The notes beneath the pieces were generated by a model, which saw only the letters and a program-made list of their open reading frames with translations, had not been told where the DNA came from and ran no database searches. This document shows, piece by piece, positions 39,464 to 51,140 of a DNA stretch of 52,830 nt. Both the position numbers and the translations under genes were made by a program. Source of the stretch: Oscillospiraceae bacterium (lineage in GTDB: Bacteria; Bacillota; Clostridia; Oscillospirales; CAG-272); the NCBI GenBank assembly GCA_015063485.1, contig SVUA01000002.1, positions 65,454 through 118,283 of the forward strand. Direction: 5' to 3'. Positions within the stretch are counted from its first letter, which is position 1, and each line of letters begins with the position of its first letter.

Positions 39464-39513
39464 ACTACCATATATTAAGCAATTTATAAACTTATTCCAT
39501 GGAGGTTCACATA

Positions 39514-42500
39514 ATGAACAACAAACGATCTTCCCTTATCATTTTAGCTCTTCTATGCATCACCCTGCTTTCGTCCGTAGGTATTTTGCCAATATCCGCC
39601 ACGGAATCGGTCAGCAACCAAAACTACGCAAAATACAAATCCGTCAGAGACGAGCTTGACGCCGAGATGGAAGCGTATCTCACGCTCGATACGACTAATG
39701 AAAATACCATAGCCCACAAAACGAACGCAATTATCGGAGAATACTCAAAACAGGCTATCGACCTGTATTCAACGCCCGAGGTACAAACGACCGACCTCAC
39801 AGAGAGCTTCGAGCTTATCTTGGCTAAAGGAAAGCTTGCGGGAAGGATATCGTGGATAGCAAACCTGCACACGAACGCTTCTCCCACCGAAAGCGTGCTT
39901 GCAAAACACGCGGAGCTTCGTGCCAAGCTCGATACAAAGACGGCGGTAAACGATCTTAATTTGAACGCCGAGTTTGCAACCACGGTATGCGTTGAGATGA
40001 ACCGCGCCGTTTTCCGCGAAAAGCTACGCGACGAAGCGCGTGAGGACGACAGCGAAAAGACCTCCGCCATTTTTCAGAACGGAGTGGCAAGGATAGAGCT
40101 TTGCTCATACGCGGAGATAGACGGAGCGGAATTTATATCTATTTATAACGAAGTTATGCGTGTCGTATCGCTCCAGCGCGTCAGAGACGGCGCGGCTAAC
40201 GAGTTGAAAAAAATTTACGTAATAATAAATGAGGGGGAGTCGGGCTTCCTTGAAAATCCCTTCGTAAAGGCTTTTTTTGATACTGTCGATGGAAATCTGC
40301 ACGTGGACGAAAGCCTTACTATAAAGGAGATCAACAATGCCCTTATAACCGCTTCAAACGGAATATTAGACGCTAAAATAGCATCGGGAGCAAAATACGT
40401 CTTTTCCTACCGTGAGACTATAAAAAGCAACTTTAAAAAGGACGCTTTATTGGCTACCGACACAGGTGTTTTTGCGCCTATATCAACAAATCTCTCAAAT
40501 TTCAAGGAAGATTTCTACCGCGCGCAGACAAAGGACAAGATCGCTTCTCTCGTATCTGCGAGTGAGACGAATACCGACCTTTTGGCTCTTATCTCCGAAT
40601 ACACCGACGATGGCGGTATCCTTGACAGATGCTCCGCTATATCCTCTATGGATACGGAATATAAGCGCGCCTCCTTCCGCGTATCATGGTATCGCGACTA
40701 CGCCTCTTGCAAACAGTCTATTGAGGATATCCTATATCTCCCTTCAAAAGAGATGTCGGACAAGCTTACTAAATACGCAAAAGACGAGATATATCTCGTT
40801 ATCGATTCCGAAATGAAGAACGCCGATATTTCGCAAGGTGAAGCAGACGATATCTTTCTTTCTCTGCAAAAGAAAGGTCGGCGCATGCTTGAGGATCTTT
40901 TATGCGACGCAAAGGCAGAACGCTTCTGCATAGATCACAAAGGAATATTAGCGGATACGTCCATTGAGCAAAACGACCGCGCGGCTTTAGAAAAAGCGAT
41001 GAGCGAATACGATTCTATTCTCAAAAGCGACGCGCTTACCGCAGAAAAGCTAAAGACACAAAAGAATTCGCTCAACGACAAATATAAAGCGCTTATAAAG
41101 CTTTGCATAAATTTAACGGCAACGGGAGATGATGCCGCGGTCCTTATAAACGCGCTTAATGCCATCTCTTCGGATCTGGCGCCATATTCCTTAAAAGCAC
41201 AGGCAGACGAATATATTATCCGCGCAGATGCGCTTGGCGTTTTACAGAAGATATACACATCTGTAACCAACACGTCAAGCTATCAAAACTACGATAGCGA
41301 ATCCAAGACCTCTCTTGCCGCAGCTTACAGAAGTGCTGCAAACGCTATTATCTACGCTTCCGCAGGACAAAGTTCTCTTTCCGATGTCCTATCTAAAATA
41401 AATTCCGATGCCGAGCTTTCCATAGAAAGACACGATTCCATAGCAAAGGTTCGCCTTGCGGCAAAGGATAGCGCTCTATCGGACGTAAAAAAGACGGTAG
41501 CAGATGCGGAAGCCGCAATAAATGCCGAAAGTGATATTGAAAAGATACGTCTGCTTTGTGAGAATGCCGTATTCAGAGTGGAATGTCAGATAAAGGGCGA
41601 TGAGATGCGTAAGCAGGTAAACAACCTAAAAGCAGATATAGACGGACTTCGCGCCCTTGACGCCGCATCAAAGACCGTCCTCAAGGGTGAGGCTGACCTT
41701 CTCTTCTCCTCCTGCAATCTTGCATCGGGAGCAACAGACAAAGCTACTCTTGATAATATAGTTTCCGATTTCGAATCAAAGCTTTCCGCTCTCGAAAAAA
41801 AGAGTGAAAGCGCTTCTCTGTCCGAGGGCAAACGGCAGTTTGTTGAGGAAATAAAGAAAAAAGTTACCGACGCGCGAACAACGGTAAACGGCTATTCCTT
41901 TATAAATTACACGGTACAGAATGCAAGCGAAGGATTTCTATCAAAGCTTGAGGCTATCGCAAAGAGCTTTGAAAATAACGTCTCGGATATCTCTACGGGC
42001 TGGAACGAGCTTGAATCGCTCAAGACTTTAGCTGTCGAGGATATAAACAAAACTCTTTCTGAGGCATACTCAGCAGAGCTTTTGGGGGCAAAAGAAAGCT
42101 CGAAAAATTCGATAACAGAGGCATTCAAATATCCTGACCGTTATTCGAACGGCAACCGAGAAAAAATAGAAAATATAATAAGCAACGCCCAAAACTCGCT
42201 TAACGGCGCAGATACGGTCGAACGTATCCTCGCGATTCGCGATGCCGCCATTTCGGATATAGGAAAAGTCTATACCCTTCTTGACGAAGCCAAAGAAGCC
42301 GCTATAAAAAAGATCGATGAGCTATACTCAAAGCTAAAAAAGGAAAAGGACTCATTCTCGGAGGCTGTATTTAAAGAGATAGACGAGCTTTATAGCCACA
42401 CCAAAGCCGAGATATCGCAGATATCCGTGTTTGAGGACAAGGATAGAGCCGACGTTATAGCAAACGAGCGCTGCGCTCTTATGCTCTCAAAAAAGAAGGA

Positions 42501-43797
42501 CAAGATAATAACCTCCGCGCAAAGTTCAATAGGACAAGTCAACGCATATCCAAGCGGATTTAACGTCTCGTTGAACGGATACGCCGCCACTCTGACGGCT
42601 AAAGGGCAGATATTCTCAGACTCATCGTTCTCGGTATTTCCATTCTCGAACGAAAATGCGGTGAAGCTGATAAGAAGCTCCGTAAAGGACGGAAAAGTTT
42701 TCCTGTCAAATGGTTCGGTGGCTAACAAAAGTATTATAAGCTCACTTCGCAACTGTAACGTTTTAGTTGGTCTTAATATGGATTACTCCGCATCCGAAAC
42801 GACGATAAACGGTATGTATTCAATATCTCTTCTATTGCCCGACCCAATAGATATGAATGGTATTCTCGGTATAGTCTATGTAAGATCGGGCGGCGGAATT
42901 GAGTATTTTGAATGTAACATCGACCAAAGAACTATCAGTTTTGATATTCCGCATTTTTCAAACTTTTATATCGTGACCGAAAGAACGGTGGATCTTTTGC
43001 CTCTTATAGTTATACTTTCGATAATTCTTTCGTTAGAAATAGCAATTATCGCGCTCCTTATGCTTCGCCGTAAAAAAGCAAATTCGGAGACAGTACTCGC
43101 TTCCTTTTTCCCGATGATCCCCATTTTTGCTCTTGCAAAGATAACTCCCTCAGGCGCGATGCCGACAGTAGCCATTCTCGGCATACTCGTTATTTGCGCG
43201 GGCGGAGTTATCGCATGGCTCGTATCGGAAGAGCTTAAGCAAAGAGCCAAAACTCAAAAGGAAAACAGATCGGGCAAAGCTTTGCCAAGCCCTGCTCCGA
43301 TCCCCGCTATATCTCTGCCCGAAGGCTTGAGAGCGGATCACTCTCGCCTTGCTTCCCCCGTACGCAACGAAAAAAACGATACGGAAAACACCTCGGAGGT
43401 CTCATTGTCGGAAATATTGCCCGATCCTGATACGGTCCTCGTGCTTGACACAGTATCGGTGGAAGAGGCTAACGACCTCATGAGCGATGCACAAGCAAAG
43501 GCTTCGCTTAAAGAGGCAAACGGCGAAGCCGTACCGTTCACGAGCTATTCAAGAACGGGAAAAAAGCATGAGGTCAATATAGACGTGATCTCCGCCGCCT
43601 TCTCTCCCAACGAGACGGTGTCGCTCCAATCCCTGAAGGAAAAGAGACTTATATCAAGGAACGCCAAAGCGGTAAAAATACTCGCGCGAGGAACGCTCGA
43701 CAAACCCTTGACAGTCATCGCGCAAGACTTTAGCACTGCGGCTATAAAAATGATAACACTAACGGGCGGTCACGCTATGATAGTCGAGCGTGAATAA
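39514..43797 (+). CDS. Giant secreted/membrane protein with ribosomal L15-like cytosolic tail
   Basis: 1,427 residues from ATG 39514 (GGAGG eight bases upstream; an ATG at 39499 precedes that site and is not used). A signal peptide (LLCITLLSSVGILPISA) is followed by about 1,000 residues of alpha-helical, Ala/Lys/Glu/Ser-rich repeats resembling FIVAR-type or spectrin-like stalks. Next comes a beta domain (about 1015-1155), a membrane helix near 1160-1183 with RRKK inside, and a hairpin of two more hydrophobic segments to about 1233. The last 75 residues (VNIDVISAAF, VSLQSLKEKRLISR, AVKILARGTLDKPLTV, ITLTGGHAMIVE) line up with the C-terminal half of ribosomal protein uL15. The helical stalk faces outward and the L15-like part should face the cytoplasm. 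Function unknown. Confidence 0.85.
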   Translation: MNNKRSSLIILALLCITLLSSVGILPISATESVSNQNYAKYKSVRDELDAEMEAYLTLDTTNENTIAHKTNAIIGEYSKQAIDLYSTPEVQTTDLTESFELILAKGKLAGRISWIANLHTNASPTESVLAKHAELRAKLDTKTAVNDLNLNAEFATTVCVEMNRAVFREKLRDEAREDDSEKTSAIFQNGVARIELCSYAEIDGAEFISIYNEVMRVVSLQRVRDGAANELKKIYVIINEGESGFLENPFVKAFFDTVDGNLHVDESLTIKEINNALITASNGILDAKIASGAKYVFSYRETIKSNFKKDALLATDTGVFAPISTNLSNFKEDFYRAQTKDKIASLVSASETNTDLLALISEYTDDGGILDRCSAISSMDTEYKRASFRVSWYRDYASCKQSIEDILYLPSKEMSDKLTKYAKDEIYLVIDSEMKNADISQGEADDIFLSLQKKGRRMLEDLLCDAKAERFCIDHKGILADTSIEQNDRAALEKAMSEYDSILKSDALTAEKLKTQKNSLNDKYKALIKLCINLTATGDDAAVLINALNAISSDLAPYSLKAQADEYIIRADALGVLQKIYTSVTNTSSYQNYDSESKTSLAAAYRSAANAIIYASAGQSSLSDVLSKINSDAELSIERHDSIAKVRLAAKDSALSDVKKTVADAEAAINAESDIEKIRLLCENAVFRVECQIKGDEMRKQVNNLKADIDGLRALDAASKTVLKGEADLLFSSCNLASGATDKATLDNIVSDFESKLSALEKKSESASLSEGKRQFVEEIKKKVTDARTTVNGYSFINYTVQNASEGFLSKLEAIAKSFENNVSDISTGWNELESLKTLAVEDINKTLSEAYSAELLGAKESSKNSITEAFKYPDRYSNGNREKIENIISNAQNSLNGADTVERILAIRDAAISDIGKVYTLLDEAKEAAIKKIDELYSKLKKEKDSFSEAVFKEIDELYSHTKAEISQISVFEDKDRADVIANERCALMLSKKKDKIITSAQSSIGQVNAYPSGFNVSLNGYAATLTAKGQIFSDSSFSVFPFSNENAVKLIRSSVKDGKVFLSNGSVANKSIISSLRNCNVLVGLNMDYSASETTINGMYSISLLLPDPIDMNGILGIVYVRSGGGIEYFECNIDQRTISFDIPHFSNFYIVTERTVDLLPLIVILSIILSLEIAIIALLMLRRKKANSETVLASFFPMIPIFALAKITPSGAMPTVAILGILVICAGGVIAWLVSEELKQRAKTQKENRSGKALPSPAPIPAISLPEGLRADHSRLASPVRNEKNDTENTSEVSLSEILPDPDTVLVLDTVSVEEANDLMSDAQAKASLKEANGEAVPFTSYSRTGKKHEVNIDVISAAFSPNETVSLQSLKEKRLISRNAKAVKILARGTLDKPLTVIAQDFSTAAIKMITLTGGHAMIVERE

Positions 43798-46554: not shown

Positions 46555-47196
46555 TTATTGTGGTACAACGAACGTATTATTTTTAACAAGATACTCCGAA
46601 GTCTTATCGTAGAGCATAAGCTCAAAGACCTCTTCCTTCAGCGAATCCTTTACGTACGCAAGATTATAACCCCAATCGTACGCATACTTCTCGGCGTATT
46701 TATTAAAAAGCTTGTCCTTTTCGTCATCGGTCAAGATTATACCTGCGCTTTTGCGGATAGCTATTCCTAAAAGATCGGAAGCGACCAACGCCTTTGCCTC
46801 TTCCAGCATAGCTCCCTCATTGCTATATCCCAAAGCTTTAAGGGCTTCTTCATAGCTCACATTGTGAACAGACGAGTAATATTCCACTCTCGTACGAGTT
46901 TGCGAAAGGTAATAATCCACCTGCTCTTTTGGATATTCGAGTATTTCAGAAGACTCTCCTATCACACGCCAGATAGCCTGTGCCTCACTCTCTCCGTCAA
47001 GCAAGATGACGGTACGTCCTTTATATTCTCCAAGCCTTACGGCAATTGAAACGTCGACGTTTTCATAGTTCAGAATACTCGCGCCGTCGCTCTCCGCGTC
47101 CTTATCCGCGCATCCGACCGCGCAAAGCAAAAACAAAAGCGTAAGCAGTACGGCTGCTACCCGCCAAAGCTTTGCCTTTCTTGAATTTTTTATCAT
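46555..47196 (-). CDS. Lipoprotein with trigger-factor/SurA-like chaperone domain
   Basis: 213 residues. Lipobox CAVGC (Cys at about 29). After a short strand region (VDVSIAVRLGEYKGRTVILLDG), helices read YLSQTRTRVEYYSSVHNVSYEEALKALGYSNEGAMLEEAKALVASDLLGIAIRKSAGIILTDDEKDKLFNKYAEKYAYDW, the layout of the trigger factor C-terminal peptide-binding arms, including a LTDDEKDKLFNKYAEKYGY-like signature, but without an FKBP or ribosome-binding domain. It would be a membrane-anchored extracytoplasmic chaperone. It is followed 19 bases later by the radical SAM gene, a possible chance pairing. Confidence 0.72.
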   Translation of the reverse strand: MIKNSRKAKLWRVAAVLLTLLFLLCAVGCADKDAESDGASILNYENVDVSIAVRLGEYKGRTVILLDGESEAQAIWRVIGESSEILEYPKEQVDYYLSQTRTRVEYYSSVHNVSYEEALKALGYSNEGAMLEEAKALVASDLLGIAIRKSAGIILTDDEKDKLFNKYAEKYAYDWGYNLAYVKDSLKEEVFELMLYDKTSEYLVKNNTFVVPQ

Positions 47197-49112: not shown

Positions 49113-51140
49113 ATGAGGATATTGATTCTTACAGACAACATGGATGCGGGCGGTGCGGAGACTCATATACTGACACTTACAAACGGACTTATATCGTACG
49201 GTCACACAGTTTTTATCGCATCTCGCGGCGGGCGCGCGGCACATAAAGCAAAAGAGCTCGGCGCGCGCCATGCAAGAATAGACCTCGTTTCACGATCTCC
49301 CAACTCTCTCGCAAAAGCGTATATAAAGTTATATGCTCTTTGCAAACACTACCGCATAGACATAATTCACGCCCATGCGAGAATGGCGGCAGTTTTAGGC
49401 GCGAGAGTCGCAGAGAGACTGCGTATTCCCCTCGTTACCACGGCACACGCGCGATTTTCCGTAACGCCCGCAAAAAAGCTCATATGTCGTTGGGGAACGC
49501 TTTGCGCGGCGGTAAGTGAGGATATAAAGCAGTCCGTCTGCAAAAACTACGGTATTTCTCCCGAAAACGTCCGAGTAATAGAAAACGGAATAGATACAGA
49601 TAATTTTTCACCCAATAAAAGCGCAAATGACGACTCTTTGCATATAGTTTTCATGAGCCGTATGGACTGCGATTGCTCAAAAGCGGCACGCTTACTTTGC
49701 GCCATTGCGCCAAAGCTTCACAGAAGATTCCCAAATTTAAAAATAACACTTGCAGGAGGCGGAAACGCGCTGAACACCGTGCGCGACCTCGCAACTGTCG
49801 CGATGCGTGAAAGCGATATCGCGATTCGCGTTATTGGACATATATCCGACCCCAAAAAGCTTTTGCAGAGTGCGGATATCTTCGTTGGAGTATCCCGTGC
49901 CGCCCTTGAGGCGATGTCTTGCGGAGCGGCTACCGTGATCGCAGGAGACGAAGGCTTTTTCGGAATAGTAGATAAAAACAACTTTTCTATTGCCAGTCTA
50001 GACAATTTTTGCGCGAGGATATGTGAAAAGCTTTCGGCGGACAAGCTTTGCGATTCCCTTTTCAGACTTTGTTCAATGGATAAAAAATCTCTTTGGAAGC
50101 TCGGACTTGATTTAAGAGAAGAGCTATTAAAAACACATCGAGCAGAACTTATGACTCAAAAAACACTTTCTATGTACCGAGATGCGCAAAAAAGAATACC
50201 TTGCGGACAAAGCGATATAGTTTTATGCGGATATTACGGCTTCTGCAATATAGGTGATGACGCGCTTTTAAGAAACGCTGTTTTGCGAGCCGAGAAAAGC
50301 TTTCCGAAATATAACGTTTGCGCTCTCACAGCGAGAGGTAAACGCGACGAGGATCGCTTTGGAGTAAGGTGTGTAAGGCGCAAGTCTCTTGCGGCTCTTC
50401 GCGAAATAAAAAGAGCTAAAACCTTCATTTTCGGAGGAGGTACGCTATTGCAGGATATAACGAGTAAACGTTCTCTTCTCTTTTACCTCTTTCTTTTGCG
50501 CTATGCGCAAAGAAACGGAGTGAGATGCGAGCTTTGGGCAAACGGTATAGGTCCTTTGCGCGTGAGATTTCTCCGTTTGCTCACGTCGCGCGCTCTTTGC
50601 GGTTGCTCGTATATCGGTACTCGCGATATTCGCTCTGCGTTTTTTGTACGCACACTCACTAATAATTCATGCGTTTTGCCCGTAGTTGAAAACGACCTCG
50701 CGGCGAATACTCCTCCCGCAAGCGAGACGCGCGTAAGCTTTCTGCTAAAATATTTCGGGATAGATGAAAACGCGCCATTTGCCGTAATAGCCGTAAAAGG
50801 CAGTCGGATAAAAAAGAGCGATACAGACGAGCTTTTGCGCCTTTGCCATGTCTTGAATATGCTTAGATCCTTAAAATATCAGCTTTTGTTCGTTGAATTT
50901 TTTCCGCGAGAGGATCACAGATTGATCGATGCCTTGGCAAAACGCTTTGACGGAAATATAGCTAAAAACCTCTGCGCATCAGATATCGTAGGAATTTTCT
51001 CACGCGCAAAATTGGTCTGCGCCTCAAGATTCCATGCGCTCGTTTTTGCGCGTGATGCGGATACTCCGTTTCTCGCATTTGGAACAGACCCGAAAATAAC
51101 GGCGTTTGCTTCCAAAAACTCTTTTTTGCCACAAAATTAA
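49113..51140 (+). CDS. csaB: GT4 glycosyltransferase fused to CsaB-type polysaccharide pyruvyl transferase
   Basis: 675 residues in two halves. Residues about 1-360: GT4 fold with [22 protein letters not shown] (donor-side N-terminal domain), [31 protein letters not shown] and the C-terminal EALAMSCG-like [18 protein letters not shown]. Residues about 368-675: CsaB-like pyruvyl transferase starting [18 protein letters not shown], with [22 protein letters not shown] and [11 protein letters not shown]. CsaB attaches pyruvate to secondary cell-wall polysaccharide so that SLH-domain proteins can bind. The fusion suggests that sugar addition and pyruvylation are coupled on one lipid-linked intermediate. 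There is no stop or frame break at the junction. AAAGGAAG precedes ATG 49113. Confidence 0.93.

Follow-up and report, generated by a model that had tools for sequence, protein, structure and literature searches.

The window, a 52,830-nucleotide stretch of DNA from an Oscillospiraceae bacterium, holds on its forward strand a gene for a large membrane protein whose C-terminal tail is a domain of the PF00828 family, here called L15C, corresponding to the C-terminal half of ribosomal protein uL15. The open frame runs from 39499 to 43797 (+) and encodes 1,432 amino acids (aa) if counted from the ATG at 39499. We have placed the start at the ATG at 39514, since a GGAGG sequence lies at 39501–39505, 8 bases upstream of it. 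An earlier model-made reading of the letters (the sequence-only reading) had given the same limits, 39514..43797 and 1,427 residues, and the position of the ribosome-binding site bears them out. Residue numbers below are those of the 1,432-aa frame; protein numbering is obtained by subtracting 5. The features of the gene are as follows.

39501..39505, + strand: GGAGG ribosome-binding site for the ATG at 39514, read directly.
39514..43797, + strand: whole gene, 1,427 aa plus stop, from the frame and the ribosome-binding site.
39514..39600, + strand: signal peptide, from the hydrophobic segment at frame residues 12–30, cleavage site placed by eye.
39601..42549, + strand: extracytoplasmic stalk, helix-rich, alignable to the relatives L037, L041, L060 and L061.
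42550..42981, + strand: juxtamembrane beta domain, ending in HFSNFYIV, from a structural model that gives a weak lead to a ZU5/GAIN-like fold.
42994..43071, + strand: first transmembrane helix, from alignment and model.
43084..43137, + strand: second hydrophobic segment, bounds by eye, low-confidence model.
43141..43218, + strand: third hydrophobic segment, a transmembrane helix from alignment and model, bounds by eye, followed by SEELKQRAKTQKENR on the presumed cytosolic side.
43219..43437, + strand: cytosolic linker, its modelled part mostly of low confidence.
43438..43533, + strand: acidic amphipathic motif, consensus VxVEEADxLMSDExA, modelled as two short helices with block values of the predicted local distance difference test (pLDDT) of 82–88.
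43567..43794, + strand: uL15 C-terminal-half domain (L15C), with PF00828 at 43573–43776.

The homology of the tail with uL15 is established by several computations. PF00828 (Ribosomal_L27A) matches frame residues 1359–1426 with an E-value of 1.8e-11 and a score of 44.8 bits against a gathering cut-off of 21.5. A profile built from 20 of the 30 tails described below, the divergent ones being left out, matches bacterial uL15 chains in the PDB with E-values down to 9.9e-17. The AlphaFold model of the tail, calculated from a three-row alignment, has a mean pLDDT of 75.2 and a predicted template modelling (pTM) score of 0.66, with blocks of 86–94 over most of the domain, and its fold is that of PF00828 (the uL15/eL18 fold). 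In a Foldseek search with this model all 50 listed rows were chains of ribosome structures (best E = 3.3e-6, probability 1.00); the rows give entries, not proteins, and 20 of the 50 are chains named uL15 in the PDB search with the tail profile. The sequence-only reading had recognised the C-terminal half of uL15 in the tail, and the PF00828 score, the PDB matches and the modelled fold all confirm this. Two outcomes named beforehand as counting against it, another fold for the tail and the lack of an L15/L18e profile match, were both examined and neither was seen.

The protein as a whole is not a uL15, because the features that define uL15 (RplO) fail. The bacterial L15 model TIGR01071 reaches 39.5 bits against a cut-off of 77.95 and covers only profile positions 71–142 of 144. 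The basic N-terminal arm, which in uL15 enters 23S rRNA, is replaced by membrane segments and an acidic stretch. Nor is it the only uL15 candidate of its genome: besides the tail in the window, PF00828 has one other place there, a uL15 frame of 150 aa on contig C65. A PF00828-type profile can thus give a ribosomal name to a surface protein. The statement of the sequence-only reading that odd membrane proteins of Clostridia have been named as uL15-family was not matched by anything found in print, and the literature searched, mostly outside subscription journals, contained no description of such uL15-like tails.

The family count rests on PF00828 places outside the frames taken for uL15; 28 such non-ribosomal places were found in 21 of the 98 genomes of the window's family. 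The proteins read were these 28 together with two named loci from metagenome-assembled genomes (30 in all) and, with three from a second family, 33. The tail is C-terminal in all 33, and the domain lies 6 residues from the C-terminus in the window and 3 to 24 residues from it in the 29 relatives listed. The forms in the first family run from 171 aa (membrane segment, linker, motif and L15C) up to 1,968 aa, and four short proteins of 171 to 211 aa (L040, L055, L057 and L058) have little beyond the membrane segment, linker and tail. The second family carries the tail in 8 of 41 genomes. Three of its eight proteins were read: two, of about 3,000 aa, consist of a signal peptide, an ectodomain, the beta + hydrophobic module described below, the motif and L15C, and the third, of 374 aa, has a membrane segment, a YSRSF-type domain (also described below), the motif and L15C. 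Across both families, therefore, the carriers range from about 170 to 3,000 aa. In the second family the tail profile scores 29 to 62 bits on presumed uL15 frames (150 to 174 aa) and 73 to 126 on tails. The tail recurs at the C-terminus of unlike membrane proteins in two families.

Samples were also taken from wider ranks. A class sample of 391 genomes, searched at E 1e-24, a threshold at which divergent tails could be missed, yielded three genomes of the second family with the tail; this sample and the 8 of 41 genomes overturned the idea that the tail is confined to one family. In the order sample (197 genomes) only G616 and G630 had two matches outside the family, in frames of 129 to 157 aa, and no further tail was seen. 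The phylum sample (398 genomes) gave a match in 395, with at most one per tabulated genome except the window's own, and no further tail. Chance or artefact was rejected as an origin, since similar layouts recur in many assemblies. An origin in mobile elements was likewise rejected: viral contigs gave 0 relatives, with one weak match to an unannotated phage record (E 1e-3). A plasmid search matched 15 records, with rplO under the match in 14 and no annotated feature there in one. Twelve of the records (H3–H14), deposited as Clostridioides difficile plasmids and 97 to 150 kb long, contain rplO and are perhaps chromosomal pieces.

The tails form a group apart from uL15. In the first tree a single branch with support 99/96 divides the 28 tails from the 18 uL15 rows; one gene appears twice among the latter (as L010 and L071), which leaves 17 distinct uL15s, and the uL15 set comprises only rows recognised by a script pattern. 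The tail set excludes L059, a uL15; neither tree includes L047 or L050, and L071 is absent from the second tree and the charge comparison. When the second family was added, uL15 still stood alone (99/96) and the new tails fell among the old. The inner order of the tail tree is unsettled, because it has few columns and open forks.

A hydropathy scan placed a membrane segment in 27 of the 30 tail proteins; those without were L047 (a 101-aa frame, probably a piece), L050 and L056. In 22 of the 27 the last hydrophobic segment has its more basic flank on the C-terminal side, with 4 ties and 1 opposite case (L032). The window is among the ties; the scan stops short of the helix end there, and the stretch following the helix, SEELKQRAKTQKENR, is basic. 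Both the signal peptide and the beta domain described in the sequence-only reading are present in the window protein, as are its three hydrophobic segments, the middle one being modelled with low confidence (pLDDT about 40).

The stalk of the window protein spans ~980 residues and has a peak of hydrophobic periodicity at 100 degrees, with 7 prolines in 965 residues. It had been described as about 1,000 residues of helical repeats: the helix-rich character stands, and no internal sequence repeats were detected, a comparison of the ectodomain with itself giving 0 hits at E 10. Large surface proteins with helical DUF1542-type stalks are a familiar background in Gram-positive bacteria, and the L15C proteins resemble them in the signal peptide and long helical ectodomain. 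DUF1542, which is helical, exceeds its cut-off of 24.3 bits in the ectodomain of L060 (28.5 bits), falls below it in that of L061 (17.5 bits) and was not found in the window protein by the Pfam scan. Unlike those proteins, the L15C proteins are anchored by membrane segments and have a cytosolic uL15-like tail.

The model of the beta domain has a mean pLDDT of 70.5 and a pTM of 0.57. No PDB row reached E 0.001 in Foldseek, and the two best rows were a GH66 enzyme; the ankyrin ZU5 domain (E 0.018, probability 0.97) and GAIN (E 0.03, probability 0.69) were among the first six. GAIN-type domains cleave themselves at an H-[LF]-[ST] site, and HFS is found in the window beta domain and in 4 of 7 aligned relatives. 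The likeness to juxtamembrane ZU5/GAIN domains thus comprises the place before a membrane helix, the HFS motif and a faint similarity of fold, as opposed to any significant fold match, and we would regard it as a weak lead only.

L15C is linked to an acidic motif and to a beta + hydrophobic module. The 30-residue motif gave 16 profile hits (E 0.01) in 14 of the 98 genomes, and each hit lies immediately before an L15C; 11 of these hits belong to the sequences from which the motif profile was built and 5 do not. No motif was found outside L15C frames in the 98 genomes at this threshold. The module profile found 18 places in 14 of the 98 genomes. Six hits exceeded 80 bits, four inside L15C frames and two (L049 and L053) in a gene that immediately follows that for an L15C protein; as all six are profile rows, which tempers the linkage, they show only the absence of unlinked strong hits in the 98 genomes. 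One further hit (61.5 bits) lies in an L15C frame, and 11 weak ones (20 to 41 bits) lie outside such frames. The module was also found in the two ~3,000-aa proteins of the second family (E 7.6e-24 and 6e-32), which are not profile rows and so are independent cases.

Loci that combine a SipW signal peptidase with fibre proteins of the TasA/camelysin type are a known kind of locus. At 5 of the 28 loci (L040, L043, L044, L045 and L057) the L15C gene has a SipW-type signal peptidase gene as its neighbour. Three of these peptidases, from L043, L044 and L045, pass the TIGR02228 cut-off and the other two fall short of it; the evidence for the gene immediately following the L044 tail comes from the genome-wide SipW search alone. 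A profile of the five peptidases found no further SipW directly beside an L15C frame in 30 frame sets, overlapping frames being dropped. A precursor that looks TasA-like by eye is also present at L043, L044 and L045; that of L043, the one scanned, matched no Pfam or NCBIfam family, and the L043-type ectodomain shows a likeness to the precursors with a probability of 65% over 36 columns, which is suggestive only. Since SipW-type genes are common in the family (found in 85 of 98 genomes at E 0.001 and above the cut-off in 52), the link between SipW and L15C is no more than suggestive; nor can the five loci all be counted as independent. The window gene lies outside such a locus. Elsewhere in the same genome, L116 (G000:C45) has two SipW-type peptidases over the cut-off and several TasA-like precursors by eye, without L15C.

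An undescribed cytosolic domain of ~160 aa with the pattern YSRSF...SYKGVKSR.SW...GR..L.K...RGK.L.LYLALDP was recognised in 9 of 28 L15C proteins (L033, L034, L035, L038, L046, L049, L050, L051 and L053). The search, which covered the open frames of the window, L060 and L061 together with those of the 27 fetched relatives, did not find it in the window protein. This YSRSF-type domain occurs at 31 places in 16 of the 98 genomes (also L107–L115 and L120), among them SipW-locus proteins without L15C (L107, L108 and L109). Pfam, NCBIfam and PHROGs gave no convincing name for it. At L112 and L113 it lies between genes that look pilin-like by eye, and at L110:2439-3674 one frame joins a SipW-type match (47.2 bits, below the cut-off) to a YSRSF-type domain in its tail.

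What the tail does can be approached from the residues in which it departs from uL15. The two share the profile, the fold and the core K.L..G.L.K.L.V.A..FS..A...I...GG; L15C differs in lacking the N-terminal arm, in being membrane-bound, in the acidic linker and motif upstream and in several charged positions that have become hydrophobic. Positions 1416, 1418, 1420 and 1427 are each charged in 17 of 17 uL15s drawn from the window's family and order and in 3, 1, 6 and 2 of the 30 tails, respectively, 1418 being Met in 23 of 30. This loss of charge would favour protein docking over rRNA binding. Our tentative proposal, which we put at somewhat less than an even chance, is that the protein is a membrane-anchored surface protein whose cytosolic, non-ribosomal uL15 C-terminal domain docks or clusters surface proteins through a protein partner or through itself. 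On this view L15C, separated from the uL15 N-terminal arm and with hydrophobic residues at several formerly charged positions, would bind a protein partner or another copy of L15C inside the cell; surface proteins would be docked or clustered by this binding, and in some species this would happen beside SipW-type signal peptidases. Docking to protein seems the likeliest use of the tail because the N-terminal arm is missing, the approach to the domain is acidic and the charged positions are lost. A wider version, in which the ribosomal-protein domain is a general and movable cytosolic docking tag (motif and L15C, sometimes with a second, undescribed cytosolic domain) that gathers stalks, fibre anchors and SipW-type peptidases at assembly sites, with a GAIN-like domain outside, is doubtful.

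Several observations weigh against the docking proposal. Three uL15 sequences from the PDB all have Ala at position 1418 and an acidic residue at 1420, and only one has a charge at 1416, so that the change of charge is evident when the tails are set beside near uL15s and less evident for uL15s as a whole. K1393, G1398, K1402, F1411 and S1412 are mostly kept in the tails, as RNA binding would also require, and the computed isoelectric point (pI) of the last 78 residues is over 9 in 21 of 30 tails including the window's, as against 7.0 or below in 8 of 30. In the second tree L043, L044, L045, L049 and L053 (5 of 28) come closer to uL15, with weak support (84/54, 90/78). For 12 of 28 L15C copies the search detected no motif. 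The window L15C gene has no SipW neighbour, and no partner, complex or phenotype of L15C is known.

The kept residues, together with the uL15 fold, the basic tails and a Gly-Gly at 1423–1424 found in 30 of 30, are what one would expect if the tail bound rRNA, ribosomes or mRNA and kept translation near the membrane site at which surface proteins are made. We consider this unlikely: only TIGR01071 positions 71–142 of 144 are represented, which leaves out the arm, the charged positions are lost, and the domain is directly preceded by an acidic stretch (net charge −9 over 60 residues in the window), with tails of pI 7.0 or lower among the relatives. The sequence-only reading had linked an outer stalk to a cytosolic module binding RNA, ribosomes or protein; its layout is upheld by sequence, model and relatives, its RNA or ribosome arm is weakened because the N-terminal arm of uL15 is missing and the four positions are mostly uncharged in the tails, and its protein arm is the likelier. 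The extreme C-terminal position and the attachment of the same tail to unlike proteins would also suit a folded cap, made last, that locks the C-terminus in the cytosol without a specific partner. A separate motif and invariant or nearly invariant residues seem to exceed the needs of a mere cap, and there are also the proteins of 171 to 211 aa that have little beyond the membrane segment, linker and tail, so that we rate the cap as rather unlikely.

The layout of stalk, weakly ZU5/GAIN-like beta domain, membrane segments and cytosolic module, with the YSRSF-type domain in 9 of 28 proteins, could be that of a receptor whose stalk senses load and whose tail, sometimes with that domain, receives a cytosolic signalling or motor factor. 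The window protein lacks the YSRSF-type domain, its beta domain has GH66 rows rather than a significant match at the head of the Foldseek results, and a Pfam scan of 21 L15C proteins gave no kinase or regulator domain above cut-off; a receptor is therefore improbable. Patchy spread (21 of 98 genomes) might point to a relic, a uL15 fragment fused by chance and carried as a functionless passenger; its conservation, its separation from uL15 in the tree, its presence in two families and its linkage to the motif stand against this, and we give it little credence. Docking through protein thus remains our preferred, if tentative, interpretation.

The gene is flanked in the window by DUF711 and PFK genes (Pfam scan), and no SipW-type peptidase lies next door. 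A DUF711-type gene is found upstream of the L15C gene in the window, L041 and L060, and the place of the locus is therefore syntenic. Elsewhere in the window one frame (49113–51140) fuses a GT4 glycosyltransferase with a polysaccharide pyruvyl transferase resembling CsaB (195.7 bits with the CsaB model, cut-off 213.1), and a small protein at 46555–47196, lipoprotein-like by eye, has a weak likeness to trigger factor (E 0.018).

Ribosomal proteins are not usually seen as a source of modules for membrane proteins, and here half of uL15 has become a tail of its own, found in two families of one bacterial class; in 5 of 28 loci its gene neighbours a SipW-type export gene. If docking is the right interpretation, this tail would reveal a cytosolic aspect of the way in which gut Clostridia-type bacteria assemble their surface proteins.

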